From an uncultured Clostridia bacterium (GTDB lineage: Bacteria > Bacillota > Clostridia > Christensenellales > UBA1242): a stretch of 51,705 nt of DNA. Below, piece by piece: positions 1,910 to 32,578 of this stretch (the stretch's first letter is position 1; every line of letters starts with the position of its first letter). A program made the translations under genes and the position numbers. Below the pieces are notes generated by a model. It was not told where the DNA came from and did no database searches. It saw only the letters and a list, made by a program, of their open reading frames with translations. The stretch lies in assembly GCA_946491735.1 (NCBI GenBank), contig CAMLYK010000003.1:1-51705 (forward strand), in the 5' to 3' direction.

Positions 1910-3334
1910 CTAAGCAGTAGGTATTTGATCTAATAGACCACCGCTGTTTTCAATCAAATCGAAGAATATGTTCATAATATCTTCTAAAAGCAAATTCTTC
2001 ACTTGTTTATAATTAGGAGTTTCTTCTGTGCCAACATTTATATATTTGTTGTTAATGCCTGTTCCGTCATCCGTTGTCCCACCAGAAGATGAGTAATAAT
2101 TGGTTGGAGCGTCAATCACTCCTGCTGAAATAAGCTCGTCAATTGTGCTCTCCTCTAATGCTGTGGATAATGCTGATGAAATATTACTTATAGTTGTATT
2201 TGGATCAATCAATGACAAGGCACCTGAACTTAGGTCTTCACTAGTGAATAGATCTGCCACAGTCAGACTATCAATTCCATCCCCCAATCCTGAAACAGTA
2301 AATCCAGCAATAGCATTCATCACTCCATCAATTTTTGTACCATCTTCATCATAATACGCGTCTTCCAAATCATTGTAAGTATAACCCAACACTTCAGCAA
2401 TTGTCATGCTGTTGATTGTGTTTTCAAGATTTTCCAATTCCCCAATAGTTGTTTTTGCAACCGTAGCCATAATTCCGGTCACTTCCTGACTAGAACTGTC
2501 ATAAACAGTATCTCCCTGAATGGTGTAATCTAGAAAATCTGCTATATACATGTTGTTAATTTCTTGTTCTAATTCTCCAATCGGAGTATTGTCATCAATG
2601 TTGTCAAAGAAGGATGGCAAAGTTATATTATAATCATCTCTCAGTTCTCCAATGGTGATGTTTGAATCGAGATCAGAGGTAAACGACGCCACTGCTTTAG
2701 TAAGTGGTATATATCTTAGAGCCACTTCTGTTTGATTGTCTGAAAGGACGAATTCATTATCTTTTATCAAAACTCGTGAATTCGCAATATCTACTGTATA
2801 ATCAAAATCTACCGCGTTTACATACTCAACTTCTTCATACAATAATCCATCTGATAAATTGTAATAATAGGTATTAGTTTTATTTAAAATGTCATCCATA
2901 TCAGACAAATCAATAACATTTTTCAATTCTTCCGCACTGATATTTGATAGTTTATTCTTCACTGCATCCATCATTTCTGGCAATGGGACATCTTTCAAAT
3001 CAACTATGTTTATACCTGCGATTTCATTACTAATACTAATACCAAAATCTGCTTCCAAATCATTAAGAGTGTAAGTATCAATATTTCTACTCAAATCTAT
3101 AGCATGAGTGACCAACGAATTCAATGTCAAATTATTAATATCTTCATATCCAGTATCAATTTCTGTATTGAATTTGTCATTGATCCAATTGACTGACACT
3201 CTAAAATACACGAAAGCCACAATTCCAACAATCGCACCTATACCTAAAAGCAAACCAATGAATGTACCAAAGAAAAACGAACCTATGCTTCCACTCTTTG
3301 TCTTGCGTGTAATTTCTCCCGCTTGCTTCGTCAT
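1910..3334 (-). CDS. Membrane-anchored extracytoplasmic TIGEL-repeat protein, 474 aa
   Basis: N-terminal TM (IGSFFFGTFIGLLLGIGAIVGIVAFVYF) then repeated units TPIGELEQEINNMYIADFLDYT.../TIGELENLENTINSMTIAEVLGYT.../TVSGLGDGIDSLTVADLF. Confidence 0.8.
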   Translation of the reverse strand: MTKQAGEITRKTKSGSIGSFFFGTFIGLLLGIGAIVGIVAFVYFRVSVNWINDKFNTEIDTGYEDINNLTLNSLVTHAIDLSRNIDTYTLNDLEADFGISISNEIAGINIVDLKDVPLPEMMDAVKNKLSNISAEELKNVIDLSDMDDILNKTNTYYYNLSDGLLYEEVEYVNAVDFDYTVDIANSRVLIKDNEFVLSDNQTEVALRYIPLTKAVASFTSDLDSNITIGELRDDYNITLPSFFDNIDDNTPIGELEQEINNMYIADFLDYTIQGDTVYDSSSQEVTGIMATVAKTTIGELENLENTINSMTIAEVLGYTYNDLEDAYYDEDGTKIDGVMNAIAGFTVSGLGDGIDSLTVADLFTSEDLSSGALSLIDPNTTISNISSALSTALEESTIDELISAGVIDAPTNYYSSSGGTTDDGTGINNKYINVGTEETPNYKQVKNLLLEDIMNIFFDLIENSGGLLDQIPTA

Positions 3335-3497: not shown

Positions 3498-3839
3498 TTA
3501 TAAAATTACAATTGTGCAACCTGAATTTAATAAATACAAATCTCTGTCTGCGAGTAAATCTGGACAATAATTTATAGCGATTTTTCTAACCACATTGTTT
3601 GGTGTCCACCTGTCACAACAAGTGTAGTCTTCAATTTTCCCTCTTCGTTTCAACTCCTCACATTTTTTCAAAAATTGTACTTTTATTGCTCCACCTACTC
3701 CGTGGCTACCATATCCGTGGATAACTTTCATTACCTTATATCCGCCTTTTTTATAACTCTCTAATTCCACCAAAAATTGAGCGATTGCTTCACTCACAGT
3801 TTGTCTATCAGATTTGATGTCAATTGTAATAAGTTCCAT
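3498..3839 (-). CDS. Smr-domain protein
   Basis: Smr signature VIHGYGSHGVGGAIK. Start assigned to ATG at 3837-3839; the ORF-track start at 3923 is a GTG without RBS. Confidence 0.7.
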   Translation of the reverse strand: MELITIDIKSDRQTVSEAIAQFLVELESYKKGGYKVMKVIHGYGSHGVGGAIKVQFLKKCEELKRRGKIEDYTCCDRWTPNNVVRKIAINYCPDLLADRDLYLLNSGCTIVIL

Positions 3840-8032: not shown

Positions 8033-8938
8033 CTATTTAGAAATATCCTCTATTACTTTTTTAAAATAATCTGGCAAATCAATTTGAAACTGCATTATTT
8101 GTTTGCTCGTTGGATGAACAAAACTAATTTTATAGGCAAATAATAATTGCCCTAATACATTGATATTTTTATCTTCGCCTCCATACAATCTATCTCCAAC
8201 GATTGGATGATTAATTGATTTTAGATGTGCTCTAATTTGATGCGTCCTACCAGTATACAACTTACAATTTAATAAAGTGTAATGGTCATATACTGCATCT
8301 ATTGAAAATTCTGTTTTGCTATATTTACCTATTTTTGACTGATTGAGAATCATTTGTTCTCTATTTTTAGTATTTCGTGTTAGATAGCCTTCTATCACAA
8401 AATTTTGTTTAATTCTTCCCTTGATGAGTGCTTTGTATTCTCTATTCAATGTTTTATCTTTTAATTGATTGCTCAAAATTTTATGTGCATTGTCATTCTT
8501 TGCAACAATCATTAAACCGCCAGTATCTTTATCCAATCTATGAATTATGCCCGGTCGAAGCACTCCATTAATTGTGGACAGATTTTTAATGTGATACATC
8601 AATGCATTTACGAGAGTATGGGATTTTGTTGTAGCACATGGATGAACCACAAGACCGGCTTGCTTATTGATTACTAACAGGTCATCATCTTCATAAATGA
8701 TATTCAGTGGTATATTCTCAGGCTCGGTATTGATTATTTCTATCGGCTTTTCTTCAATGCTGATTCTATCCCCCAATTTTAGTTTGTATCCAGATTTTTT
8801 CTTTTCATCATTTACCAAAATTCTTCCTTCGTCATTCAATGTTTTTAAATAACTGCGGGTGAAATCGGTATGTTCTACCAAAAATAAATCCAATCTGGTA
8901 TCCACCTGCGAATTATCATCAACTATTAGATTTATCAT
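8033..8938 (-). CDS. rluD: RluA/RluD family pseudouridine synthase
   Basis: S4-like N-terminus, IIHRLDKDTGGLMIVAKND catalytic motif, GRTHQIRAHLKSINHPIVGDRLYG. Confidence 0.9.
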   Translation of the reverse strand: MINLIVDDNSQVDTRLDLFLVEHTDFTRSYLKTLNDEGRILVNDEKKKSGYKLKLGDRISIEEKPIEIINTEPENIPLNIIYEDDDLLVINKQAGLVVHPCATTKSHTLVNALMYHIKNLSTINGVLRPGIIHRLDKDTGGLMIVAKNDNAHKILSNQLKDKTLNREYKALIKGRIKQNFVIEGYLTRNTKNREQMILNQSKIGKYSKTEFSIDAVYDHYTLLNCKLYTGRTHQIRAHLKSINHPIVGDRLYGGEDKNINVLGQLLFAYKISFVHPTSKQIMQFQIDLPDYFKKVIEDISK

Positions 8939-9389
8939 TTTTCTTCCCCATAAAAAATAGTATAAATATTGCCATCATGACCGCCCCAATACACAAGAAG
9001 GTATCTGCCAAATTGAATATTGGAAAACTAGGCCAAAAATCTAAAAAAATAAAATCTCGAACATAACCCAAACATAATCTATCAATTAAATTACCTAATG
9101 CTCCACCGACAATAAATCCAAAGGCAATGGAATAAAATATAGATTTGTTCTTCACAAAATAATTAAATATGAAAAGTGCTATTATCATTATGACGCTCAC
9201 AATTATCAATACAATGGTACTATCACTAAACATTCCAAACGCCGCTCCGGTATTGCCATTGTTTGTCGCAATGGAAATCACATTTGGAATGAGATTAAAG
9301 TATTCTACATCAAATAAAAAATGTTTGGTAACAAGATCTATTACCAAAACACCAATTAATGTACAAGCAATTGTAATCCAATTTTTCAT
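8919..9389 (-). CDS. lspA: Lipoprotein signal peptidase (signal peptidase II)
   Basis: NNGNTGAAFGMF, GGALGNLIDRL, FPIFNLADTFLCIG catalytic motifs; four TMs. Confidence 0.95.
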   Translation of the reverse strand: MKNWITIACTLIGVLVIDLVTKHFLFDVEYFNLIPNVISIATNNGNTGAAFGMFSDSTIVLIIVSVIMIIALFIFNYFVKNKSIFYSIAFGFIVGGALGNLIDRLCLGYVRDFIFLDFWPSFPIFNLADTFLCIGAVMMAIFILFFMGKKNDKSNS

Positions 9390-9416: not shown

Positions 9417-9857
9417 TTATTCAGGCTTATCCGGACGCAAAATTTTGTGTCCTTCAGGTGTCAGCAAGAAAAGATCTCCATGCCAGCGATGTATACTGCC
9501 GTTCAAACCATAAATTGCACCCGACAAAAAATCGAGAATTCGCATTCTATCCTCGTCAGCAATTCCTTCAAGATTCACAGCGATGGACTGTCCTTGTTTA
9601 AGAAAATCTATTACCTGTTGAATTTCTTTGTGTGTTTTCGGTTCAACCATAATTATATTAGATTCTGGTTGCAATCCAAATGAATTAAAGTTTGTCCCTG
9701 TAGGCATAGTATCAAATGAATTAGTCTCTCCCGCAACACGTTCGTGAAGATTGAAATTAGAATACTTGTCATTTTCTTCAACAGTCTTAGTTTTCTTATC
9801 CTTTTTATCTTTGTCTTCAAAACCCAGTCCGCGCATAACCCAATCAAAAAATCCCAT
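9417..9857 (-). CDS. sepF: Cell division protein SepF
   Basis: MGFFDWVMRGLGF N-terminal amphipathic segment and C-terminal NIIMVEPKTHKEIQQVIDFLKQGQSIAVNLEGI...RILDFLSGAIYGLNG. Confidence 0.92.
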   Translation of the reverse strand: MGFFDWVMRGLGFEDKDKKDKKTKTVEENDKYSNFNLHERVAGETNSFDTMPTGTNFNSFGLQPESNIIMVEPKTHKEIQQVIDFLKQGQSIAVNLEGIADEDRMRILDFLSGAIYGLNGSIHRWHGDLFLLTPEGHKILRPDKPE

Positions 9858-9864
9858 ATTCCAC

Positions 9865-10110
9865 CTATGAACCAAAAATTTGTTTTTTCAATAAATCATA
9901 TTCAGCATCTGTTGCTATATTGAATTCTTTTACTACACGTTCATAAATCGCAATCACTTCTTTGTTTTGAGTCTTAGATTTGGCTTTTTCCAGCATCTTT
10001 TCAGCCACTTTTATTGCGCCCTTTCTGTCCAAGCGATTGTCAATACCCACAATTGTTTCTATGACGTCCATACATTTATTTTCAAATTCTTCAGTACTTA
10101 ACTCAGCCAT
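9865..10110 (-). CDS. Small soluble protein of unknown function
   Basis: ORF with AGAGGTG RBS; MAELSTEEFENKCMDVIETIVGIDNRLDRKGAIK...; immediately upstream of sepF. Confidence 0.6.
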   Translation of the reverse strand: MAELSTEEFENKCMDVIETIVGIDNRLDRKGAIKVAEKMLEKAKSKTQNKEVIAIYERVVKEFNIATDAEYDLLKKQIFGS

Positions 10111-10128
10111 ATGCACCTCTTTATATAT

Positions 10129-10157: not shown

Positions 10158-10212
10158 CAATTTCAATAATCTTAAATAATTGTAACATTTTATTTATTTC
10201 TATTAAAAAAAC

Positions 10213-10239
10213 AAAAAGTTCGTGAATCACGAACTTTTT
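10213..10239 (-). terminator. Terminator of the giant surface protein gene
   Basis: Perfect 12-bp inverted repeat AAAAAGTTCGTG-AAT-CACGAACTTTTT just after the stop. Confidence 0.85.
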
Positions 10240-10245
10240 ATTTAA

Positions 10246-13200
10246 CTATGCATTTGGCTTGAGAACAATTATCCTAAATTGCAATGTATATTGAGTTTGC
10301 AAAGGAGTTCCTGTGGTCAAAGTATATAATATTTCTAGCTGATTTGAGTTTGGATTGTCTATAAAATATTGATTTATCATTGCACCATTCAACATTATAT
10401 TCCCTGTGTAATTTCCATCGCTTTGTTCAAATAGAGTCGTATAATTCGTTGAACTTTCCACAATTGAATTGATCAAATTCAAATTTTCTTCACTTAACTC
10501 AACATACTGACCTTCAGCATCTTGAATGTACAGTCCTACCTCACTTCCTGAACCAAGCAAACTGACAGTTAGATTTTCTGCCGTATTGCTAGCAGTTATC
10601 TCAACAAATGGATACAAAGGAAGCTGGAATTCTACATTGAATGTCAAGGTGACTCCACTATAAATAGCTGTATAACTCAAATTCAATAAAGTGACATTAG
10701 GATTTTCATTTTTGTACACTCTCAAAGTGTCTTTTGTTACCGTTATTGTTCTACTATTGATATCGATATTACTGTAATCATTTGTAGAATTTTCAGTCAA
10801 AGATGCTAGTAAACTTTCTGTTCCATTTGCTCCAAATGACGTTTCAGTAAATGCACCACTGACATCATTTTGATATGTAGAGAACTTTCCATTCAAATCA
10901 AGTACTGAATCTACATCCATATAGTTTACTTGGAAGAACCATGACTGGAAGTTTCCGCCGTAGTCCACATTTACAATTCTATCATCTTCTGAAGCTATCG
11001 CATACATTGTTGTCACTAGGTTATACAATTCATCGCCCGAGCCAATATATGTGACTTCATACAATTCGTATGTTCGCTCATTTACTGTAATTGTACCTAT
11101 TTGACTGCCCAATTCATAACTTGTAGCATTGTTTACCCAATTGATTGATGGAGTGTCACTTGATGCATATACTCCGACTACATAATAGTTCAAGTATGAA
11201 GTATTATTGCATTGATTTGCCAAGAACATATCACGCACTCTGAATTGTCCTTTTGCAGTAATTGCATTCGTAGTGGTCAATTTGAATCCATTTGTTCCAT
11301 CATATCCGTCTATATGGATTATTGCATTATTGCTTTCAGACATTACATCCAAATCTGCAATCAATTCATTATTGAACAGTTTATTGTTTGCCACATCGTA
11401 TCTATTTAGATCCGTCCAGTTAGTACTTATATATGGATTTGACAAATTGATACCAAACGTTCCATTAGCATACTGACTAGCCGTTGATGCATTTTCAATA
11501 TATTCTAATACGAAATAGATGCTAGTAACACTGCCTGTAAATCCGTTCATATTGGACAATCTTATACTTGATACTGAATCAATAAAGGTCTTAAACTCGG
11601 TAATGCTGTTATATTCAGTGCTAAATAGTGATCTATTTATCACCTCATTTTGTTGAATACCCGTGCCATAATATACGTTGTCGTACACTAAGGTTCTCGT
11701 TACTGTATAATTTGTTACTTGTGATACGCCTTGCATTATGATTATAGAATAAGCGCTATTAGCTGTTTCAATTCTGATAGTATAGCCGTTTGTTGAAGAA
11801 TAAGTTCCGTCGTCATTTCTTGAATATACTCCAGTATATGCTGACACACTCGTCTCTACATCCATAACAATGTTTCTATTACTATCCAATCTTAATGTAA
11901 ATGTGTTGTCACTTTCGTCTGTATAGACTTCAGCAAAGTAGAACATGTCAACATAATTTCCATTGATCAAATCATTATCAACATCAATAACTGTATATTG
12001 TGCATTAGGACTGATACTAGCATTATTATAGACTTTATATGTTACATAACTAGCGGCAGTTGTTTGATTCAAATATGTAAACTCTATTCTATACGTAACA
12101 TTATAATAATCATAATTTGGTGCGCTAGATTGTGGCACGCTTGGTAGAACAAGAGAAACAGTGTTAGTATTGAATATATTATTGTATGTCGCATCTACCG
12201 CATTAATTTGATCAGCATTTTCAAATACAGAATTGACATTTATAGTTTCAGTGAATGGAGTGATCACATAATTTACTTGTATTCCTTCTAATTCAAATGA
12301 ATTTGTCACATTTGGATTTAAATTTAATTCCCCATGCGTGTTAGACATTACAATACCTGTATCTGCAAAATTCGATGTGCTAGATATCACATTCACACTC
12401 GTACCAGATGTGAAGCCCTCTCCATTAGATTGAACAAGAATGTTGTTTTCTCCATTGACAGAAGGATATTCCAGTGTGATAAATCCTAATACGTTGATAT
12501 TCCAAAGGACTGAATATGTTCCATTTTCTCTGAGATCAATGTCAAGTTGCAAGATTAGCGAACCTGTGAAGTCTTTGTGAATATTGATAGCAAAATTTGT
12601 ACTATCAATTGATACATATTCTGTACCCCAATTAGAAACCTCTGTTATTCTAATGCTTTGAACATCGGTAATTTCATCCAATCCGTCAACAGTGAATAAT
12701 TGTAATTGAAGATCGTATGAATATGTAGTACCGTCATATACAATATTTTGAGTATTATTTCTAACTCGCAAATTTTCTGTGTAATTTAATCCTGTATTAC
12801 CACCAGTATTGCCTATATTATTTGTAGTCAAAATATAATTTGTGTAGAATTCATCTTCTCCAGAGGACATCGATTGACCGTTCACTCTAAAATCGAAGTT
12901 TGGACGCAAATAGAAGTTATATTGTATTGTACCGATATAATATCCATCAGCGTCTGACACTCGGAAGTAAAGCGTCACATTGGCAATTGCTCCAACCGCT
13001 TTTGTCATAATCAAATTTCTTTGGACATCGCCTGAACCAATGCTCTCATAATTAAATATTGCATTATTTGTTTGACTGATATAAACTCTTTCAAACCCTG
13101 TAATTATATAAGAACTAACATTCCCGCTAGTGCCCATAACAAGTTGAGCATTGCTCAATGACAATTCACTCAAGTCTGGCAAATTAGATCTAATAGATAT

Positions 13201-16200
13201 CTTATCAGATAAATCTACTTGCTCGCCTGCATAAATTGTATCATATGAAGTCGAATATGCACTTTCAAGAGTGTAATTATAGAAACGAATTTCTAGTGTC
13301 CTGCCCACAAATTCTGACCCTGAATACACATTAATAAGGTTACCACTATCTCCATACATGGTGAGAGTAAGTGACAATGTGCCAAATGGATCATATCCAA
13401 CCTCTCTTTGCAGACCAACATACAATTGTCTTCCTGAGCCTAATCTTATTGTTATAATTAAACTATTTCCATTGTTGTTAGTCAACACAATTGAATATAC
13501 AATATCATCTGGATAATTGCTGTTTTCTACTCTATCTAATTTTGTCACTTGATAGTTAGAAGTGTTCACACCTTCTACACGAATAGCCAAATTCGTGATA
13601 TAGAATACGCTATTATTTCCATCGAACAATGAAGCAATATGTTCACCAAGCATCACTGTTTGACCATACACGGTATCCGTGTCTCCATAAACGAATGAAC
13701 TGTTTGCAGTAGTATCTGTAATGGTCATTGCAACGTATTCATTATTGCCTATGACGCTATTAGTTTCTATTTGATAATCCAAGCCATCTTTGTACTCACT
13801 ACTGCTCATCAGTTGATATTGATATGTGATATTTGTCAATCCCGCACTGTTTGAAATATACAAGTTTGTCATTCTATTACTATCTACTGAAGTGAATGAA
13901 AGTGTCGGTTCGGTAGCGCTCATATTCATATTGTCGCCAGTAGTAAAATTGATATAATTTGGACTTGACGGATTTGTAAATCCTATATTATAAGGATCAT
14001 AATCAGTGATTTGATTTTCACTTAAATCAACCAATGCAATACGACGCGTATTCAAAATATTGGTATTGGTTGTATCTGATATGTCTGATACATTGCTATC
14101 ATCAATGGTATTAAATAATTCATTATAGATATTTGGAATTATATAACTGTTAATGACATTTTCATGATTAGCACCTTTGACATAGTAAATTGGCAAAATT
14201 GTTGAATATGTCCTAATCGCATTTACATAGAAGTTGACAATTCTATTTGACCCACCTGCTTGATACGATGTGTTAGAGTCGATATCTCGTATTGTGATAT
14301 ATAATATCAATGCCTGATTTTGAGCCGAATGAACGAAGTTGACATCTTCTTCTGCATCGACTGTCTGAATCTTGATACCATCATCATTTTCTGTCAAATT
14401 AATATAATCATCATTTGAGAAAGTAATGTCGAGAACGCTTGCTTTGCTAGTATAAATATTTAGTCCTCCGACATAATATCTAGTCACTCCAGATATATCA
14501 TTAGTGCTAGAATTTATTGTTATTCTACTTCCTGTAGAATTCAAATACAAATTATCTATACCTTCGCTAGTTGATGTCATCGCCGTATCCTGACTTTGTC
14601 CAATGCCCGATTGTGGTTGAGATACATAAAGTCCACTGAGTACGTTAGTTGTAATAGTTCTAGTATATTTAGCATCATTTTCATCTACTATATCATCAAA
14701 CTGTATTACAAATTGAACAGTATAATTTGACGTTGTTTGATCGAATTCGAGATAATGCTTGTCATTGTCAAGGTCGTAGATATATCTCATGCCCATATTG
14801 TTGTCAAATGTTATAATGTTGTCACTGCCCACATCTACTGTACCTTGAGCAAGGTCAATAGTAGCCATTATATCACTCGAATTATCATTTAATATTGACA
14901 AATCCTTATTGTAATTACCTATCAGGGTCGACAAATCTAATCTATTGTCAAAGTAACTATTGATAACCCCTTCATCGTCATTGCTTTGTATAAACTGACC
15001 AACCGTCACAGACACGGCATTTGTGTCAATTCCAATTTGTTCATAAGTATAGTGAACTATAACGACGAATACATTTGAACTATCTCCAATAGTATAGATA
15101 TACTTCACACTAAATTGCAAATCTTCATTATTGACATAACTATTGAATACAACTGTAGTATCATTCAAACTGATAATCAAGTTTCCATTAGAACTTATAG
15201 AATCAGTTGAATAAGTATAGCCATCCTCTCCTTCTACAATTTCAGCAGACCAAACACCTCCATAAGTTATGCCAGAATCTATTCTGTCATTTACATTAGT
15301 GAATGGAATTTCAAATTCTTGAACATCAGTGGTTATAGTTTTGGTATATTGTCCTGTTTCCACGTTATTTATTAATGGAAGCACGACTGCATTTCCTTCT
15401 GCATCTTGACGTACCACTTCTTCATAAATTGGCAGTACATAGACTTCAAGATTACCCAAATACAATCTCGTATTGCTAGAATTCAAAATCATACCTATTT
15501 TTAGATATGTATAATTGTCGATTGCTGGCAAACTTTCTTCATCAATCTTTGAATGTGTACTATAATCAACCAATTCAAACTCACCTTCGAGCATATCTGC
15601 TTCTAATAAATAGAAATCAACATTTGAATAATTAATATTTGCACCAAAGTTGTTTGCAAAGAAATTAGTATCAATGCTATAACCTAAGAATGTTCCATTT
15701 TCTGTATTGATATAATTTGATTCAGATTGATTGCCCACTGAATTGAATACAAAACTGTTTGTATAATCTACGTTATTATAACTTGTAAATAATTGATTGT
15801 ACAAGTATACAAAATAGTATCCTACACTACCAGATTCGGAAGTAATTTTGAAAATAAAATATCCATAATTTCCGCTGGCAAATGTGATATCTTCATTGAA
15901 TGTTATCGTATTATCTTGCTCATTGATTACTATTTTGCCACTATTATAATAATTTCTTATAATCGCATTATTTTGATATGCTATCAATTCAATATCAAAA
16001 TCTGCACCAGACAAGACATTATTATTGATTTGGTCATAAATTACAACACGTCTGATAGATTGATTTTCATCATAATCCATATCAATGGTCTGATTTATAT
16101 TCACTGGCTCAAAATAGTAAGGAACTCCATCTATTGTCTGAATAGTGATTGTATATACATTTTCTCCTTGAACCTGAACACCTAATAGATTATTAGCATC

Positions 16201-19200
16201 AGTTTGAGCATCCTCTCCAACGAACACAAAATTAGAGGTCCTGCCTGTCAATGTGCTATCCTGATATGGTGATGAGATGAGAACACTTTGTCTATTATAT
16301 ATACTTATAGTACGTGTGAATGTATATGTTATTCCATCATTATATGTGATAGTATATGTCACATTCACAGTCTCGCTATTTCCATTAAACTCGCTGGTAT
16401 ATGCGTGTGCTCCATAGTTGGTCACTCCGATGTACCCACTGCCCAAGAATGAAGTGTTTGTAAACAAACTTTCATCATCAACAGCAGTGACTATCATAGA
16501 ACTAATCAAATAACTATCAATATCTAAATCAACTAATAATGACTCTAAATCATATAGATCATTCAACAAATCAACAGAAGTTGAAGCCCCTGAATAAATT
16601 GTTGCATCAATCTCATCTGGAGCAAGCGGAGTCAAACGAATTGCAAAGGCATCAGTTTCTGATGTCGTATAGATTAATCTTCTGGTTACACCGCCATTTT
16701 CATAAGTAAATGTAAATGTCAATACAACATCATTTCGAACTCCGTTCAAGTTTGTAATCAATTTGAATGTATTGTTATCTACAGTGAATTCAAGGTCAGA
16801 ATAATTTGATTGAATGCTAGTTAAACTGTAGTCTGCATTATTCAATATTGATATGAATGACTGATAACTTATATTAGACATTATAGTATAAACATTGTCC
16901 GAATAATCAGGGAAATTGTCTCCTTGCGTTTCTCTACTGATTTCATATCTATTGTATAGGACAACATCAGTATTCAACAATTCTAGATTTCTAGTGACGC
17001 TTCCCACATCATATCTGTAATACACGGTGACGTTCTCTGTGATTTCTTCTCCTATATTTTCAAGCCATGCGACAGTGAAATTCGCATCAGCTGAATTCAT
17101 GCTGATCAAAGAATTGTCAATTAATCCTAAAGATAAATTAGAATACAACACGCTGGCATCTTCCAGATCAGTCTCTGAATAGATCGCTCCGCTACCTTGT
17201 CCATATACTTTGCCTACAGTTGTATAACTCATAAGGGTGACGAAATCACTCAAAGCATGTGTATCTCCTGCGCTAAATCTTGGAGTTATATCTTCAAAAT
17301 TCGAATTGATTCTAGCTACAACGTTAGGAACAATATTTATAGTGTAAGAATCTAATTGTCTACCACTATAATAGAATGTGAACACGTATGATCCCACTTC
17401 TTCAAAGACGAACTCTGAATTGTTGATAGTGCCCATATATTGTTCGCCATTGATTGCTAATTGTGCAGTAATTTCCGTACCGCCCATTGAATTTTTTATT
17501 TTGAATACTGGCTCATTGCTCGTATCGCCCGTTTCGCTCACTTCGTATATGAATACAGACGTACCTTGATAATAATTGCTCCAATTAGAATTCAAATTAA
17601 TTTCTATGCTTGAAGTAAACGTCAATGCAAAAGAGACAGTTTCACATGCCTTGACATCTATATCAAAACTAATAATCAATTCCGCATACATGTAACTTAT
17701 GCGATTGAATGTCCAACCCGATTCGTTACCCACTATTTCCAGCACTGTCTGATCATCGCTTGTTACAATATTAAATCCAGAACTTGTAGCCTCAACAGAC
17801 AAATCTCTATCTCCACCGAATTGAATGACTGAGACATTTTCAAGTGTTACATTCGTACTGTTGATAGCTAATTCAACGTTATTTCCATTATTATTGTATG
17901 TATAATCAATAAATGTATCTAGGCTGACAGAAGGTAGATCCGTAGTTGCCTCACCCGTACCATCGACAAAACTCAAATTGAATCTACTATCACCTAAATT
18001 CATTTCCTCAGTCTCTATAATTACAGCAAAATATCTGATGATATCATCACAACTCACTGACAATACTGCACTGCCAATTTTGTTGACAGCAATATTGACA
18101 TTGCCACTTGAGTTGATGTCAAAAATGCTAGGTGAATTTGAGGCATAAGATAGATTGTGTGAAATTCCATTTATAATCGGATTGACTAAAAATCCTCCCA
18201 ATTCATTTGTAGTAACAGTTGAAGTCAAATTGAACAATTTTGTATATATTTCATCGTCAACAAGTTCAATTTCCACATCTCTATGAACGATATAATATGT
18301 ATACGTGAAATCATTTGCATCCAAATCATATCCAATTTGTACTCTTATATAGAAATCAGGCAAAGTAGATGTTGGTAATGCGGTTTCTGGGCTGTCGTAT
18401 AGTTGTACATTATATACATTGTTATTTCCACTGTCATCTGTTCCGTTAATATAGGTAAAATAAATATCTGTTGCGGCGGTGCTTTCAATATAGATTTTAT
18501 CAGATACAATTTCTATACCATTATATAAGAATACTATCCTCAAGTAAGAATCAGGATTAGACAATGCACTTGAGCATGAATAGCTTAATTGAAGGTTGCC
18601 ATCAGTGAAAGTCAAACTATTAAAATCTATTGCATCAGAATTCGTTGACATCAATTGATCGGTTGATGAGTATAGATATACTCTCATATTGTCGCCAGTA
18701 TTGATGTCAAGCACTCCAGTATTGTACAAGTCTTGTAACATATTTGTGACATTAGAACTCAAAGTCCATGTGTGCCTATCCGTATTCTCAACTACGTGAA
18801 TATTTCCATCTATTATGTTGACGAAAGCATCTGTGCCTCCAATTTCTTCTCCGTCAATGCTGAAAGCATTATAATCATAGTTTATCTGATCAGTCAAAAT
18901 GTTGTAACTAACATTGATTGTAACACGTCTAGCATCGGATATGAAACTGTTCACCACTTCTGCCACCGGGTCCAAGGTCTGTGTTTGACTCCTATTGCCT
19001 AGACAGACATCCTGACCATCTCTAGTTAATGAAACAAATTCACACACGTAATCTAAATTGCCGTTTGCACCTTGAACTGTCACAACCAAATTATTATTTT
19101 CTATTCTAAAATCTGTGATATTTAGAGTCACATCTTCAGATGTCACGACTTGCTCGCCGTCTATCCAGCTCAAATTCACATATTTAGTTTCAAATTCTCC

Positions 19201-21339
19201 ACTGTCATTTGCCACTTGAATAGAATATCTAAAGACAATATTGTTCTGCTCATCCTCTAAGATTGATTGTATATACTCGCTAGCAGATTGCTCGTAATCG
19301 TTTTGCAGTTGAAGCATGTATATTGATGTACCGACATTGACCGCACCTTCTCTTATTCTGACAGCATTTACGAACTGATCACCCTGAATATATCCAACCA
19401 ACACATATTCGTTGTTCAACGCGTCGGTAAAAATCATACCTTCAACAACATCAATATCGTAAATTCCATCGGCTTCTCTTGGCGTGATGAATACACATGC
19501 ATCATAACTACCATTAGTAATGTTGATAATATCATCAAATTCCAATTCTGGATAAACGGTGGTGAAAATCATCTCATTATTTCTGACATAATTTACTTCA
19601 AGATCATGCGTGCGGTTTTCATCAACAAAACTGAACGTCAAATCAATTGGAGTAACGGATACTCCAGCATATGCAAAATATGCCCCACCACTGTTATTTA
19701 CGACCAAAATACCCAAGACTAAGCTTTCTGTCTCGCTAAGTTCAACAACGTTTTTAGCGACTATATTCCATGATTTAGTTTCTCCACTATTTATTGAAGT
19801 TGCGGTATAATCGAACGTATTTGCATAGTTGTATAAACCTGATTGAGTATTATAAATATAAAATTGTAGATAACTACCACTTCTCAATAACTTTATATTA
19901 TAAGTAGCATCTGCATTGCTCTGCAAGAATGCGGCACCATTGGCACATTCAAAAGTGATTGTATTGCTCTCATAGATACAACTCATCGAATCAATAAGTA
20001 CAGTACTGCTATTCACATATATATTTGATAGCGTATACATGAGTGAAAAGTCATTTAAACCATTTATATTTATAACATTTCTACTTGTGTCAACACTATA
20101 AGTATATGTGTTATTCAACTGTCCGAACCCAGATAACGTTACGCTACCCGAATTGAAAATGATATTTCTCTGCCCGTCATCTGAAACGAAATTGATATTG
20201 ACGTCTGACCAATTGTCCGGATAAGTATTTTCGTCAAGGCTGAAATCTACCTCATTGAAACGGATCGTGGTAGGAACGCCATCTCTTATCATAGACAAGC
20301 CAAGATTGTTGTCATTCGCCCCCTGCACACCTGATTGACCTGAAAGCGTGATATAGTTGTTGTCTGCATAGAGGTTCAAGTTAATACCAGTCGAATTCAT
20401 TGTGACGCTAGAGATATCTGAATTGACCACATTGATAGTAAGCGTAGTATTTACCATTCTAGATATGCGATCAAAATTTGAATCTGTCTGAACATACGAA
20501 CTGTTCAAATAATCCTCTCGTTCTTGATATGTGGCAAAAACTGCAATTTTAAACTCATATGTGCCAGCTGTATCTGCTGAAAAGCTAAACTTCTGATTTT
20601 CATTATTATAACTTAAGAAAGGATAATTCGAATATGTAGAAGTATTAATTGGAACATAATCTGCTTCATTAGGGTCATCATAATACAATTCTACGATCTT
20701 GCCATCTTCTCTACTGATTGGGTCAAGTGAATGATCTGGTGTTGCTTTATAATTGAAATCAAAACTGACATCAACACCCAGTTGCAGTTCTTGTTGACCA
20801 TTATGACTGGTTGATGAGCCATAATCGAGAGAAAGATACGTTACTTTTCTATCAACCCAAATAGTTAGATTGTTACTAGACTGCACCTGACTGCGTGCAT
20901 CTCTACCTTGCAAAACGACTTGCCCGTAAGTAGAACCAGAAAAGTTCGTTTCAGAAACATCATTGACTTTATAGTAAATGTATTCGTTGCATTGAACAAG
21001 ATAACGATTATTTTCTGCTTGCAAAGGGTTGCCATTTTGATCACACAGAGTGATCAAATCTGCTCCAACATTGTTGACAAAATAAATATAACAATCTTTT
21101 TGATTTACTTCATATTCCTCATCGTCTGAAAATCCATTCAAAACGAAAGAATACAATCTATCTTGATTCGAATCACTATAGACAATTGTCTGTTCATCTT
21201 CAATGAATTCAAGGCGATTTGGATATACATCTGGCGTTCTGAATCTTCCCATAAGTGCCATAATACCAAAAACAGCACCAACGAAAACTATGATGCTTGC
21301 CAAAACGATTGCAATAACTTTAAAAATTTTTTTTGTCAT
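10246..21339 (-). CDS. Giant membrane-anchored extracytoplasmic beta-rich protein, 3697 aa
   Basis: Single uninterrupted ORF; one N-terminal TM (IFKVIAIVLASIIVFVGAVFGIMALMG), no other TM seen, no LPxTG; N/S/T/Y/D-rich, Lys-poor; one Big_2-like segment (NLSYASNSPSIFDINSSGNVNIAVNKIGSAVLSVSC). Confidence 0.85.
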   Translation of the reverse strand: MTKKIFKVIAIVLASIIVFVGAVFGIMALMGRFRTPDVYPNRLEFIEDEQTIVYSDSNQDRLYSFVLNGFSDDEEYEVNQKDCYIYFVNNVGADLITLCDQNGNPLQAENNRYLVQCNEYIYYKVNDVSETNFSGSTYGQVVLQGRDARSQVQSSNNLTIWVDRKVTYLSLDYGSSTSHNGQQELQLGVDVSFDFNYKATPDHSLDPISREDGKIVELYYDDPNEADYVPINTSTYSNYPFLSYNNENQKFSFSADTAGTYEFKIAVFATYQEREDYLNSSYVQTDSNFDRISRMVNTTLTINVVNSDISSVTMNSTGINLNLYADNNYITLSGQSGVQGANDNNLGLSMIRDGVPTTIRFNEVDFSLDENTYPDNWSDVNINFVSDDGQRNIIFNSGSVTLSGFGQLNNTYTYSVDTSRNVININGLNDFSLMYTLSNIYVNSSTVLIDSMSCIYESNTITFECANGAAFLQSNADATYNIKLLRSGSYLQFYIYNTQSGLYNYANTFDYTATSINSGETKSWNIVAKNVVELSETESLVLGILVVNNSGGAYFAYAGVSVTPIDLTFSFVDENRTHDLEVNYVRNNEMIFTTVYPELEFDDIINITNGSYDACVFITPREADGIYDIDVVEGMIFTDALNNEYVLVGYIQGDQFVNAVRIREGAVNVGTSIYMLQLQNDYEQSASEYIQSILEDEQNNIVFRYSIQVANDSGEFETKYVNLSWIDGEQVVTSEDVTLNITDFRIENNNLVVTVQGANGNLDYVCEFVSLTRDGQDVCLGNRSQTQTLDPVAEVVNSFISDARRVTINVSYNILTDQINYDYNAFSIDGEEIGGTDAFVNIIDGNIHVVENTDRHTWTLSSNVTNMLQDLYNTGVLDINTGDNMRVYLYSSTDQLMSTNSDAIDFNSLTFTDGNLQLSYSCSSALSNPDSYLRIVFLYNGIEIVSDKIYIESTAATDIYFTYINGTDDSGNNNVYNVQLYDSPETALPTSTLPDFYIRVQIGYDLDANDFTYTYYIVHRDVEIELVDDEIYTKLFNLTSTVTTNELGGFLVNPIINGISHNLSYASNSPSIFDINSSGNVNIAVNKIGSAVLSVSCDDIIRYFAVIIETEEMNLGDSRFNLSFVDGTGEATTDLPSVSLDTFIDYTYNNNGNNVELAINSTNVTLENVSVIQFGGDRDLSVEATSSGFNIVTSDDQTVLEIVGNESGWTFNRISYMYAELIISFDIDVKACETVSFALTFTSSIEINLNSNWSNYYQGTSVFIYEVSETGDTSNEPVFKIKNSMGGTEITAQLAINGEQYMGTINNSEFVFEEVGSYVFTFYYSGRQLDSYTINIVPNVVARINSNFEDITPRFSAGDTHALSDFVTLMSYTTVGKVYGQGSGAIYSETDLEDASVLYSNLSLGLIDNSLISMNSADANFTVAWLENIGEEITENVTVYYRYDVGSVTRNLELLNTDVVLYNRYEISRETQGDNFPDYSDNVYTIMSNISYQSFISILNNADYSLTSIQSNYSDLEFTVDNNTFKLITNLNGVRNDVVLTFTFTYENGGVTRRLIYTTSETDAFAIRLTPLAPDEIDATIYSGASTSVDLLNDLYDLESLLVDLDIDSYLISSMIVTAVDDESLFTNTSFLGSGYIGVTNYGAHAYTSEFNGNSETVNVTYTITYNDGITYTFTRTISIYNRQSVLISSPYQDSTLTGRTSNFVFVGEDAQTDANNLLGVQVQGENVYTITIQTIDGVPYYFEPVNINQTIDMDYDENQSIRRVVIYDQINNNVLSGADFDIELIAYQNNAIIRNYYNSGKIVINEQDNTITFNEDITFASGNYGYFIFKITSESGSVGYYFVYLYNQLFTSYNNVDYTNSFVFNSVGNQSESNYINTENGTFLGYSIDTNFFANNFGANINYSNVDFYLLEADMLEGEFELVDYSTHSKIDEESLPAIDNYTYLKIGMILNSSNTRLYLGNLEVYVLPIYEEVVRQDAEGNAVVLPLINNVETGQYTKTITTDVQEFEIPFTNVNDRIDSGITYGGVWSAEIVEGEDGYTYSTDSISSNGNLIISLNDTTVVFNSYVNNEDLQFSVKYIYTIGDSSNVFVVIVHYTYEQIGIDTNAVSVTVGQFIQSNDDEGVINSYFDNRLDLSTLIGNYNKDLSILNDNSSDIMATIDLAQGTVDVGSDNIITFDNNMGMRYIYDLDNDKHYLEFDQTTSNYTVQFVIQFDDIVDENDAKYTRTITTNVLSGLYVSQPQSGIGQSQDTAMTSTSEGIDNLYLNSTGSRITINSSTNDISGVTRYYVGGLNIYTSKASVLDITFSNDDYINLTENDDGIKIQTVDAEEDVNFVHSAQNQALILYITIRDIDSNTSYQAGGSNRIVNFYVNAIRTYSTILPIYYVKGANHENVINSYIIPNIYNELFNTIDDSNVSDISDTTNTNILNTRRIALVDLSENQITDYDPYNIGFTNPSSPNYINFTTGDNMNMSATEPTLSFTSVDSNRMTNLYISNSAGLTNITYQYQLMSSSEYKDGLDYQIETNSVIGNNEYVAMTITDTTANSSFVYGDTDTVYGQTVMLGEHIASLFDGNNSVFYITNLAIRVEGVNTSNYQVTKLDRVENSNYPDDIVYSIVLTNNNGNSLIITIRLGSGRQLYVGLQREVGYDPFGTLSLTLTMYGDSGNLINVYSGSEFVGRTLEIRFYNYTLESAYSTSYDTIYAGEQVDLSDKISIRSNLPDLSELSLSNAQLVMGTSGNVSSYIITGFERVYISQTNNAIFNYESIGSGDVQRNLIMTKAVGAIANVTLYFRVSDADGYYIGTIQYNFYLRPNFDFRVNGQSMSSGEDEFYTNYILTTNNIGNTGGNTGLNYTENLRVRNNTQNIVYDGTTYSYDLQLQLFTVDGLDEITDVQSIRITEVSNWGTEYVSIDSTNFAINIHKDFTGSLILQLDIDLRENGTYSVLWNINVLGFITLEYPSVNGENNILVQSNGEGFTSGTSVNVISSTSNFADTGIVMSNTHGELNLNPNVTNSFELEGIQVNYVITPFTETINVNSVFENADQINAVDATYNNIFNTNTVSLVLPSVPQSSAPNYDYYNVTYRIEFTYLNQTTAASYVTYKVYNNASISPNAQYTVIDVDNDLINGNYVDMFYFAEVYTDESDNTFTLRLDSNRNIVMDVETSVSAYTGVYSRNDDGTYSSTNGYTIRIETANSAYSIIIMQGVSQVTNYTVTRTLVYDNVYYGTGIQQNEVINRSLFSTEYNSITEFKTFIDSVSSIRLSNMNGFTGSVTSIYFVLEYIENASTASQYANGTFGINLSNPYISTNWTDLNRYDVANNKLFNNELIADLDVMSESNNAIIHIDGYDGTNGFKLTTTNAITAKGQFRVRDMFLANQCNNTSYLNYYVVGVYASSDTPSINWVNNATSYELGSQIGTITVNERTYELYEVTYIGSGDELYNLVTTMYAIASEDDRIVNVDYGGNFQSWFFQVNYMDVDSVLDLNGKFSTYQNDVSGAFTETSFGANGTESLLASLTENSTNDYSNIDINSRTITVTKDTLRVYKNENPNVTLLNLSYTAIYSGVTLTFNVEFQLPLYPFVEITASNTAENLTVSLLGSGSEVGLYIQDAEGQYVELSEENLNLINSIVESSTNYTTLFEQSDGNYTGNIMLNGAMINQYFIDNPNSNQLEILYTLTTGTPLQTQYTLQFRIIVLKPNA

Positions 21340-21623
21340 TTTCCCCTACCTAAACACTTTTGAATAGACAACAATTAATGCAAATGCAGTCATTTATGAA
21401 ACTCATTAGTCTTATTATCTACAAAATATTACAAAATAATTATATATTTTTAAAACAATCATGTCAAATAAAACAAAAAGCAAAATAAATTAAAATTTAT
21501 TTAAATTTCCCCAAAATAAAATATTGTAAAAAATGTTAATAAAATAAAAAATGATTAATTTTTTTTCAAAAAAACTAATAAATTAAATAAAAAAATGATA
21601 TTTTTATAATTTTTTTTAATATT

Positions 21624-22409
21624 TTAACTATTTTTTAATGAATTATAAATATTTACAAAATTTTCTACACTAATTTGTTCTGGTCTAACAGATTCAGAAT
21701 AACTATGTTTTTTCAAAACTGATATCAATTTATCTCTTTCAAATTTTGATTTCAGGTTATTAACGAGAATTTTCCTTCTCATTGAAAATGAAAGATGAAT
21801 AAAATCCTTAAAGTCATCAAAATCATCAAATTCGTATTTGTGATGAGGCACCATCTTGCATAATGCACTGTCCACTTTAGGTTGTGGTGTAAAACATTCT
21901 TTTTTTACAATGCGCGGAATTGACACATCGAATATTGACTGCAAAATTACACTTGTGATTCCATATTCTTTTCCTCCATGCAAACTAGCAAATCTCAACG
22001 CCACTTCTTTTTGAACAAGAATAAGTATGCTGTCAAATTTTTCTATATGGTCAATCAGTTTAAAGACAATAGGCGTCGTGATATAATAAGGAATATTTGC
22101 AACAACTTTAGCTTTCCCAACAAATAAGTTTTCAATATCACACTCCATAAAATCAGAAAAATGAAATTCAATATTATTAAATTCTTCATTCAGTTTTTCA
22201 AGAGTGTCAATTAGAGATCTGTCAATTTCAAACGATATTACCTTTTTAGCCGAAAGTGCCAATTCTTTTGTTAGACTACCCGCTCCTGCTCCAATCTCAA
22301 TCACTGTATCATCTTTTTCTACATTGCCATCTGCAACTATCGCTTTTAAAAGATTTTTATCAAAAATGAAATTTTGACCTAAATTTTTCTTGAAATTAAA
22401 ATCCTCCAT
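21624..22409 (-). CDS. rsmA: 16S rRNA dimethyladenosine transferase RsmA/KsgA
   Basis: KKNLGQNFIFDKNLL, VIEIGAGAGSLTKEL SAM motif, VVANIPYYITTPIVFKLI, FTPQPKVDSAL. Confidence 0.95.
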   Translation of the reverse strand: MEDFNFKKNLGQNFIFDKNLLKAIVADGNVEKDDTVIEIGAGAGSLTKELALSAKKVISFEIDRSLIDTLEKLNEEFNNIEFHFSDFMECDIENLFVGKAKVVANIPYYITTPIVFKLIDHIEKFDSILILVQKEVALRFASLHGGKEYGITSVILQSIFDVSIPRIVKKECFTPQPKVDSALCKMVPHHKYEFDDFDDFKDFIHLSFSMRRKILVNNLKSKFERDKLISVLKKHSYSESVRPEQISVENFVNIYNSLKNS

Positions 22410-29410: not shown

Positions 29411-32400
29411 ATGAAAACTAGAAGAAAATTATTAAAGAATATTATTTGTTACATTACGGCATTGGCATTTATCCTTTTTGCTAATATTGGATTATTAGAA
29501 TTAATCGACTTTGAATCAATTGCTTATGCTGTAAATAATAATGTGCAAAACGAAATCAGCATCACGAATCAAAACTTCAACAGCAGTCCAGACAGTTCAT
29601 ATCCATTCGATCCTACAGGTTTTACGCCAAGCTCAGATACGGAAACTGCTGGAGTTAGCGCTGGTGTAATAAACGTAGACGATGAGGCTTATTCAAAATA
29701 TAAAACTGAGGAATCCTTCCGTGACAATTACGTACTGATGATTGATAGCACTGTCGCTAATGAGGATGAAAGTTCAGAAACTGATATTACTCACAATGCC
29801 AACTTCGGATTCACAACCAACGATGCTATCACATTGGAAGCTGGATCCAACTATTCAATATCTGTTGATGTATATACATCCAACAATAGCGGAATAGGGA
29901 CATTGTATCTATTCAACTCTGAAGACAATTCTATATATTCATCTATTTCAAATATCAATTCTTTAAATCATTATACTACCTATACATTCTTCATTACTAC
30001 TAATGATATTGCGGATGTGGAAGTCAAATTAGGAATGTATTTACGCGGATCCGGGGTCGTTTTGTTTGACAACATTTCAGCTTTTGAATTAAATTCATTG
30101 ACTTTAAATAGAAATATAGAAAATCTCAACAATTCATCATCGTTATCCAACACATATGTTTATATTGATGAGCGTGATAATCTAATTGATGAAATAGCAA
30201 TTGACAACAACACATTCACTATATCAAATTTTGAAACTGGCAAAAATTCACCTGAATACACCACCGCAGGCGTTGTACAAAACTCTAGCGATCCAGAAGC
30301 AAATGACGGAAAGACAAATACTGCATTCAAAATTACAAATAATCAAGCAACATACGTAGAGTATTCTACAGCGGACGATTTCTTAGAGTTTGAACAAAAT
30401 TCTATTTACAAAGTCAGCATATATGTCAAAACGATTGATATAGATGGCAATGCCAATTTGCAACTATTAGAAACCAATCTTGACAACGATGATTCTGACA
30501 GTGAGGACGAAGATCCAATCTTGACAATCAGTTCAGACACGGGAGAAGATGATAATATCATAAATGATTATCAAGAATATGCCTTTTATATTCGTTCTAA
30601 TCCGATTAGATCATCTACATTCAAACTTGTTGTTGGTTTGGGTGACTCTGAAAATGCAACCACTGGAAATCTATATGTAGGATCAATAATTGTTACAAAA
30701 ATAAACTATTCGATTTATGATGGTATATCAACAGGCACATATGCTGAAAAAATTGATTTAGCCGAAAATTATGCTTGGTCAAGCAATGATTTATATATTG
30801 ATAATGGGAATTTCAATGAAATAGAAATATCAGATTATTCAAATCCATATCCTGCCACCCCATCATCGTGGAGCAGAGACGAATCGGGTGAACATGATCA
30901 ATTCTATGGAGTTGTCAACACTGCTGACAGTGAATTCAGTAAACTGGACTCATCTAAATTCTCTAATTTGCGCAATCCAGGCAATCCTTATGGTGGAAAC
31001 GGCAGTAATAATGTTTTAATGATGTATAATTCAACTGCAGATATCCAAAGTTATACTAGCAGTGCAAAAACTGGTTTGACTGCAAGATCTTATTATAAAT
31101 TTATACTTCAAGTGCAAACTCAATTTACCCCTGCTGAAATTCAGTTGGTAAGCACGATCAATGAAAATGAAGTAGTCCTATCTTCAATTATCGTTGATAC
31201 AAACTTCAGTTGGGAAACCGTTACAATGTATTTATATACAGGTTATCAATCAATTGATGTATCAGTAAAGGTCATTTTAGATACCAATAGTTATGGTTAT
31301 GTCTATATTGACAATGTAACATACAATTACCCTATTCAGCCTACAGAAACTGAATATAATAATGCTACTAATTCAACCTATTTAATTAAAACAGATTTGT
31401 CAAATTTGTTTAGTTCAAATGACTCATCCTTGCCTTCATACTTTGTTGGAACAAGTGAAAATGAAAATGTCACAACACGAGTGGTTGATTTAAATAACCC
31501 TAGCAGTTATAACGATATTGTATTGGATAATACAAATTTCACAAGTCTAAATTCTGTTAATAAAAATGTTTTAGTCATTCGTTCTCCTCACACTGATTCA
31601 TATTATACATTAACTTCTGCTCTTGGATATACACTTACAAGTGGAAGTCATTATAAAATAAGCGTGTCTGTTTATACTCAAAATCTTCAAATTTTATCGG
31701 ACAGTGTGGATCATGACTTGGTTGGAGCCAGCGTAAAACTATCAAGCTTTGATGAAACATTTACACAAATTGTTTCTGACGGCAGATGGACAACCTACAC
31801 TTTCTATATTTCACCTAATACTGATACCACTGCTTATATAGAATTATCATTGGGAAGCTCCTCTGCAGCAGTGACAGGCACAGTATTCTTTGGCAATATC
31901 GATTTTGTTGAATTCGATGAAGATGATTTGACAGAATACAACAATGCAAGAGAAAATTCTTATACCAAGATTTTGACTCAAACGACAACAGAAGAAACTA
32001 CAGATAGTGAAGAAGAAACTGATGACGACGGAAACAATATTGATATAAATACAATCCTATATTATGTTTCAAGTATATTGTTTGCATTAGCAATAATCAT
32101 TGCAATTATTGGCGTAATGGTTAGAAAAATTAAATGGAAAAAGCCAGTTAAAAAATCAAAAACTGCATATGATAGAAATCGCACAGTTTCAAAACAATTG
32201 TATCAACGTAAAGCGACAACAATGCGTGAAGCTAAATTGAGAGAATTGAATAAAGAGCTTGAAGCAATGCATGCAGAACGCAGTCAATATGAAGACGAAT
32301 ACAAATCTGATCTATCAAAATTGAGAGATTTAAAGATCAAACGTGCTGATCAGTCTGAAATAAATAAATTGCAAAAAGAAATGAAGAAAAAACAGAAATT

Positions 32401-32578
32401 ATCTTCAACCATTGGTCTATCTATCAGCAAGTTAGAGTCTGAAATAGAGTTTACAAAAACTGAGCAATATTTAAACAATTTGATGAAGAAGTTAGAACGT
32501 GAACAACAAGAAGCATTAAAGAATTCGGACAACGTTGATGAAGAAGATTCTCAATCAGACAGTGATGATAAGAAATAA
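29411..32578 (+). CDS. Surface protein, 1055 aa: signal peptide, four CBM-like repeats, TM, cytoplasmic coiled coil
   Basis: N-terminal signal ending AYA; four YKISVxVYT...WTTYTFYI...GxVYIDNI units; TM ILYYVSSILFALAIIIAIIGVMV; K/E-rich coiled-coil C-terminus. Confidence 0.85.
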   Translation: MKTRRKLLKNIICYITALAFILFANIGLLELIDFESIAYAVNNNVQNEISITNQNFNSSPDSSYPFDPTGFTPSSDTETAGVSAGVINVDDEAYSKYKTEESFRDNYVLMIDSTVANEDESSETDITHNANFGFTTNDAITLEAGSNYSISVDVYTSNNSGIGTLYLFNSEDNSIYSSISNINSLNHYTTYTFFITTNDIADVEVKLGMYLRGSGVVLFDNISAFELNSLTLNRNIENLNNSSSLSNTYVYIDERDNLIDEIAIDNNTFTISNFETGKNSPEYTTAGVVQNSSDPEANDGKTNTAFKITNNQATYVEYSTADDFLEFEQNSIYKVSIYVKTIDIDGNANLQLLETNLDNDDSDSEDEDPILTISSDTGEDDNIINDYQEYAFYIRSNPIRSSTFKLVVGLGDSENATTGNLYVGSIIVTKINYSIYDGISTGTYAEKIDLAENYAWSSNDLYIDNGNFNEIEISDYSNPYPATPSSWSRDESGEHDQFYGVVNTADSEFSKLDSSKFSNLRNPGNPYGGNGSNNVLMMYNSTADIQSYTSSAKTGLTARSYYKFILQVQTQFTPAEIQLVSTINENEVVLSSIIVDTNFSWETVTMYLYTGYQSIDVSVKVILDTNSYGYVYIDNVTYNYPIQPTETEYNNATNSTYLIKTDLSNLFSSNDSSLPSYFVGTSENENVTTRVVDLNNPSSYNDIVLDNTNFTSLNSVNKNVLVIRSPHTDSYYTLTSALGYTLTSGSHYKISVSVYTQNLQILSDSVDHDLVGASVKLSSFDETFTQIVSDGRWTTYTFYISPNTDTTAYIELSLGSSSAAVTGTVFFGNIDFVEFDEDDLTEYNNARENSYTKILTQTTTEETTDSEEETDDDGNNIDINTILYYVSSILFALAIIIAIIGVMVRKIKWKKPVKKSKTAYDRNRTVSKQLYQRKATTMREAKLRELNKELEAMHAERSQYEDEYKSDLSKLRDLKIKRADQSEINKLQKEMKKKQKLSSTIGLSISKLESEIEFTKTEQYLNNLMKKLEREQQEALKNSDNVDEEDSQSDSDDKK

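Follow-up and report, generated by a model that had tools for sequence, protein, structure and literature searches.

A single-copy, N-terminally anchored giant protein with predicted tandem Ig-like domains in Candidatus Onthoplasma and the family UBA1242: a candidate attachment stalk

Giant surface proteins of reduced-genome symbionts and surface proteins built as arrays of immunoglobulin-like (Ig) domains are both known kinds. Among the Ig arrays are the S-layer proteins SbsC, Sap, EA1 and that of Nitrosopumilus, the grappling hook GhpA of Aureispira (9fly_A) and PrgB (8beg), the latter two being long surface chains that catch or hold cells, and the giant RTX adhesins MpAFP and LapA (5k8g), which are held N-terminally, expose a distal C-terminus and contain Ig-like extender domains. 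PrgB is attached by sortase and contains other domains besides, while MpAFP and LapA depend on type I secretion and an outer-membrane retention plug, as found in Gram-negatives. Giant ORFs proposed as adhesins have been described in reduced-genome symbionts of the Omnitrophota, Patescibacteria and Nanohaloarchaeota; those of the Omnitrophota exceed 20 kb, many have several transmembrane (TM) helices and most are poorly conserved (PMC10066038). For the family UBA1242 a symbiotic or parasitic life has been inferred from genomes, in which standard uptake transporters are missing, and unnamed 'hypothetical membrane-bound proteins' were suggested to mediate contacts with other cells (PMC12306168). 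The literature found names no UBA1242 attachment factor, and no account of a conserved single-copy, N-anchored Ig-array giant marking a whole Clostridia family turned up in the open-access literature searched.

The giant protein described here comes from Candidatus Onthoplasma, a genus of UBA1242 (GTDB; order Christensenellales) with genomes of about 0.9 Mb (range 0.8-1.2 Mb). It resembles the giant ORFs of PMC10066038 as a single very long surface protein with few recognisable domains and a proposed role in attachment, encoded in the small genome of a presumably host-dependent microbe; unlike the Omnitrophota giants, its gene is 11 kb long, specifies one TM helix, and is conserved and syntenic across a Clostridia genus. 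With the Ig-array S-layer proteins it shares tandem Ig-like sandwiches, as judged by Foldseek, and the position of one main surface protein, but it has no SLH or CWB2 anchor, is several times longer and carries an N-terminal TM. Its Foldseek likeness to GhpA and PrgB is not matched by any sequence homology found. The layout of MpAFP/LapA, also reached by a Foldseek match, is similar, whereas the giant has a signal-anchor, belongs to a Clostridia lineage, gives no RTX match and consists of non-identical domains.

The window, that is the whole 51,705-nucleotide stretch of DNA that was analysed, is an entire contig, one of 38 in an 883-kb genome that is 95% complete. The features of the giant and its neighbours are as follows:

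21624..22409, minus strand: rsmA, conserved upstream neighbour
21439..21467, minus strand: promoter of the giant itself, TTGACA-17-TATAAT (12/12), some 128 bp ahead of the start codon
21343..21350, minus strand: ribosome-binding site GGTAGGGG, from the sequence
10246..21339, minus strand: giant CDS, ATG at 21339, stop at 10246, 3697 codons (3697 aa), backed by orthologs
21247..21318, minus strand: single TM signal-anchor, residues 8-31, predicted with the lysine-rich N-terminus inside; residues 1-50 are the most conserved block
21265..21279, minus strand: G21xxxG25 small-residue motif within the TM, accompanied by G31, from alignments
19240..21240, minus strand: membrane-proximal residues 34-700, including the near-invariant Cys83 and Cys117
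17950..21240, minus strand: predicted tandem Ig-like beta-sandwiches, residues 34-1130 (AlphaFold model, pLDDT 88, 85 strands)
18940..19239, minus strand: least conserved internal stretch, residues 701-800, gapped in about half of the orthologs
10840..14208, minus strand: predicted tandem Ig-like beta-sandwiches, residues 2378-3500 (AlphaFold model, pLDDT 85, 84 strands)
10255..10875, minus strand: weak internal duplication at the C-terminus, residues 3489-3574 and 3604-3695, from HMM-HMM comparison
10209..10243, minus strand: intrinsic terminator, 16-bp stem and T-run, directly behind the stop
9865..10116, minus strand: 83-aa protein of no family, conserved downstream neighbour
9417..9875, minus strand: sepF, conserved downstream neighbour
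8919..9389, minus strand: lspA, conserved downstream neighbour

The gene is intact, monocistronic and real, and takes up more than 1% of the genome DNA of its source bacterium. The preliminary description had reported the 11-kb ORF, giving no strand; since colinear, stop-free orthologs of similar length exist in 24 other genomes, it is neither a chance frame nor a misassembly, and there is no frameshift. The protein ends in TLQFRIIVLKPNA. Its make-up, described from the outset as rich in Asn, Ser, Thr, Tyr and Asp and poor in Lys, amounts to N 11.1, S 9.7, T 9.4, Y 7.2, D 7.2 and K 1.3%, with a net charge of -313. There is one hydrophobic segment only (residues about 8-31), with no LPxTG and no C-terminal TM, as had been claimed, and no further TM or sorting signal turned up in the protein.

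A strong ribosome-binding site precedes the gene, and AGGTAGGGG is retained in most orthologs. The pattern TTGAC[A/T]-17/18-TATAAT stands upstream of all 25 orthologs tested, the match being 12/12 in 14 and 11/12 in 11 (the window counted in), with the next-best site mostly at 8-10. The genome holds 47 perfect TTGACA-type sites, against 3 in a reversed control, so the giant's promoter is of the strong sigma-70 type yet not unique; the idea that it was the only 12/12 site of the genome was thereby ruled out. The terminator, first noted as perfect, bears this out as the one terminator on the minus strand (10243-10209), where 0.2 would be expected by chance. The downstream operon (83-aa protein, sepF, lspA, rluD) has a promoter-like site of its own, and an Rfam search of the region returned no element.

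Within the genus the locus reads rsmA-GIANT-83aa-sepF-lspA-rluD. One ortholog per genome is present in 32 of the 33 other genus genomes, 31 of them detected by BLAST and the last, G022, with a giant of 3807 aa at the same locus. No giant was found in G021; as rsmA is missing from that assembly as well, its locus is probably unassembled. Complete orthologs span 3235-4225 aa and are stop-free, and most of the colinear ones (24 other genomes) are 24-56% identical. Of the 24 loci read, 23 are on contigs that extend far enough to show the gene immediately upstream, which is rsmA in every one, and the 83-aa gene with sepF lies downstream in 22, once behind an inserted 414-aa ORF. The question raised early on, whether related genomes carry one giant at the same place, is thus answered for the rsmA-sepF locus, and the housekeeping rather than mobile setting holds throughout the genus with its rsmA/sepF/lspA synteny. 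A phage or mobile origin was rejected: viral Foldseek matches concern the Ig fold only (7-11% identity), and synteny and the vertical signal oppose it. As to the flanks, L037 (G019) and L038 (G026) have ORFs of 634 and 485 aa downstream in place of the 83-aa gene and sepF. Nearly every genus member, and G083 too, has the 83-aa protein, which belongs to no Pfam family, between giant and sepF.

Conservation along the chain is highest at residues 1-350, fairly even onward, and lowest at 701-800 and after 3600; the final 100 or so residues vary or are missing in roughly half of the orthologs. Pairwise identities of the giant follow those of the neighbour genes closely (Mantel r 0.90, 0/2000 permutations), at a mean of 31% for the giant vs 64-75% for the neighbours. 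By these comparisons the giant is vertically inherited and diverges far faster than its neighbours, as exposed surface proteins do. The orthologs at L042:4970-15400 and L043:4501-15312 have C-termini with '...LTLYAKWT...', the end motif of a Listeria-Bacteroides (Flg_new-type) repeat, so the distal domain differs between species.

Lysines precede the TM, and residues 8-31 are the sole clear TM of the giant. Positions 21, 25 and 31 are Gly or Ala in 24/24 genus proteins and in 20/20 of a family-wide alignment, more in keeping with helix packing than with a cleaved signal peptide. Sortase (PF04203) was detected in 0/36 UBA1242 genomes vs 11/24 genomes from the rest of the order. Nearly all genomes searched have FtsW/RodA, so UBA1242 cells are most likely walled, and without sortase; the lack of sortase in turn explains the N-in TM anchoring. 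That anchoring, originally set apart from the usual sortase-anchored adhesins, finds support in the conservation of the TM and juxtamembrane segment, more conserved than any other part, and the giant, with neither LPxTG nor a C-terminal TM in a family whose tested genomes lack the enzyme, is no LPxTG adhesin. Most of the chain is presumably exposed at the surface. Other surface proteins are encoded in the window as well. A 1292-aa protein (44383-48261, minus strand), with a sub-threshold match to Bact_surface_Ig-like, and a 1055-aa protein (29411-32578, plus strand), without a Pfam match, are both large and have an N-terminal signal, a C-terminal TM and then a charged cytoplasmic tail; they are thus anchored opposite to the giant in the same sortase-less genome. 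A 474-aa protein (1910-3334, minus strand), also without a Pfam match, combines an N-terminal TM with an ectodomain in which 'IGEL/TIADxL' motifs recur.

The same kind of anchor can be followed beyond the genus. A profile of 144 positions, covering the TM anchor and the first Ig-like domain, matches 77 of 118 UBA1242 genomes, spread over 30 of 42 genera, with a single match in each genome (double rows being split matches inside one ORF); since the profile was built partly from finds of a first profile, the count tallies matches within a seeded class and does not amount to an independent test. The 50 strongest matches have a median ORF of 3120 aa and a maximum of 4651, 46 of them reaching at least 1300 aa; the short ones may be cut off where a contig ends. 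When 200 genomes were drawn from the whole order, no more than six from outside the family matched, marginally (best E = 7.5e-5). The giant of the window has the G21/G25/G31 anchor, the first Ig-like domain and a large ORF, and is single in its genome; the profile results thus describe a UBA1242-wide, single-copy class of N-anchored giants that is, as far as sequence comparison goes, essentially confined to the family within the order. The giants of G076 and, more weakly, G083 are detectably homologous to the Onthoplasma type and both lie at the rsmA locus. Those of other UBA1242 genera lie at different loci, are each colinear for thousands of residues with others of their group, and share detectably with the Onthoplasma type only the first 50-150 residues. 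A contig profile scan with a single giant protein as query gave nothing, the giants being found by the alignment-based scan. In G035, of another genus of the family, a 2448-aa N-anchored protein about 8 kb downstream of rsmA (L094:11293-18639) is not homologous to the giant; by eye it shows Listeria-Bacteroides-type and BspA-like leucine-rich repeats.

Searches of Pfam, NCBIfam and PDB sequences with the whole giant and its two aligned stretches gave nothing significant, and no known adhesin family matches over the full length; Big and other Ig families of Pfam gave scattered matches, all below the curated cut-off. The Big_2-like segment proposed near 18049-18165 is plausible by eye, but Pfam reports no Big_2 there, even for the segment alone. 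The remark that the rest shows no repeat stands at profile level, except for the weak C-terminal pair. The AlphaFold models, built from 20-sequence alignments, cover two stretches of some 1100 residues each, together about 60% of the protein, and extend the Ig-like character far beyond a single such segment: both are almost wholly beta and consist of successive Ig-like sandwiches. At 7-8 strands per sandwich, about 10-12 domains fit into 1100 residues, and extrapolation from the two stretches gives an array of probably some 35-40 Ig domains; Cys83 and Cys117 may form a disulfide. Foldseek retrieves Ig arrays (Kit, Dscam, Sidekick, cadherins, Nup210, S-layer proteins, PrgB, GhpA), at low TM-scores over the query chain (0.08-0.13), presumably because domain-to-domain angles differ; the models point to likeness at the level of the fold, which is no evidence of homology. 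A lipid bridge of the AsmA/VPS13 type, likewise an N-terminal TM followed by a long beta-chain, was dismissed, as the models are Ig sandwiches and no such protein is among the Foldseek matches listed.

The anatomy of an N-anchored Ig array is very likely, and a function in attachment stands at about even. The best explanation overall, held with slightly better than even confidence, is a single-copy, wall-spanning contact or attachment stalk. The lysine-rich N-terminus would remain inside the cell and one TM helix would anchor the chain, of which about 3660 residues would cross the membrane via Sec and then the peptidoglycan, and project outside, conceivably for more than 100 nm. The giant's own consensus promoter would drive it, probably constitutively; the stalk would link a cell predicted to be host-dependent and genome-reduced to partner cells or gut surfaces, and the Gly-xxx-Gly motif may bundle several stalks. 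Retention at full length in genomes of 0.8-1.2 Mb favours such a stalk, as do the single ortholog at one locus in nearly every genus genome, the vertical yet fast divergence, the predicted Ig arrays, the promoter found before all 25 orthologs tested, the absence of sortase from cells that are probably walled, the family-wide anchor, and the earlier proposals on UBA1242 (PMC12306168) and on giant ORFs of other symbionts (PMC10066038). Conservation and colinearity of the whole chain, and not just of a tip, with the C-terminus least conserved, count against it; repeat-type adhesins usually differ in repeat number. No ligand-binding domain or tip was identified in the giant. The strongest rival, unlikely as it is, is a membrane-anchored, S-layer-like coat, in which the giant, made in bulk, would lie around the cell beyond the wall and protect it or act as a sieve, like the Ig-array S-layer proteins of archaea and bacilli. 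The S-layer proteins among the Foldseek matches (Nitrosopumilus, SbsC, Sap, EA1) accord with it, as do the single giant per genome, the consensus promoter in all, the strong acidity and the lengthwise colinearity, but these matches reflect a common fold, and with 46 other perfect promoters in the genome the promoter is no proof of bulk expression. S-layer subunits usually have 0.5-1.6 kaa; a chain of 3.7 kaa whose domains are not repeats, held by one TM, would be unusual among them. Canonical S-layer anchors are missing (CW_binding_2 in 0/60 genomes, SLH in one genus genome only, and no Pfam match to either in the giant), which leaves room for another coat; their absence neither excludes nor proves a TM-anchored one. 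The SLH domains of the single genus genome lie in an 820-aa ORF (G026:C43:1256-1813), possibly a binning contaminant.

It is quite improbable that the chain organises the wall without binding cells, as a membrane-peptidoglycan tether or a division or spore scaffold with a functional tie to sepF. The genus-wide, unvarying linkage to sepF and lspA, the fairly even conservation along the chain and the sporulation genes kept in UBA1242 (PMC12306168) would suit such a scaffold. The link to sepF, however, looks positional, because giants of other UBA1242 genera lie at different loci and a promoter and terminator of its own flank the gene; fast divergence and the lack of any peptidoglycan-binding domain detectable by Pfam also weigh against it. 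Least probable is that the hydrophobic segment is a cleaved signal peptide, the giant being secreted free or held by carbohydrate. The C-terminus has no retention motif, which would fit, but the segment together with G31, F33 and P40 is the most conserved part in the genus and positions 21, 25 and 31 stay small across genera, whereas cleaved signal peptides normally do not conserve such positions.

Beyond the contact stalk as such, it is possible, though doubtful, that in each UBA1242 species one fast-diverging, N-anchored Ig-array giant is the contact organelle of the lineage, a single-gene grappling stalk that would replace sortase-anchored adhesins and whose divergence would track the partner of these cell-dependent bacteria. 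Members of UBA1242 are common gut bacteria, uncultured and with reduced genomes, and are suspected of living off other cells. The giant adds a case from the Clostridia to the giant surface proteins known from other symbionts with reduced genomes and, kept throughout the genus and in most sampled genera of the family, it is a testable candidate for attachment and a handle, by antibody or probe, for finding the partner.
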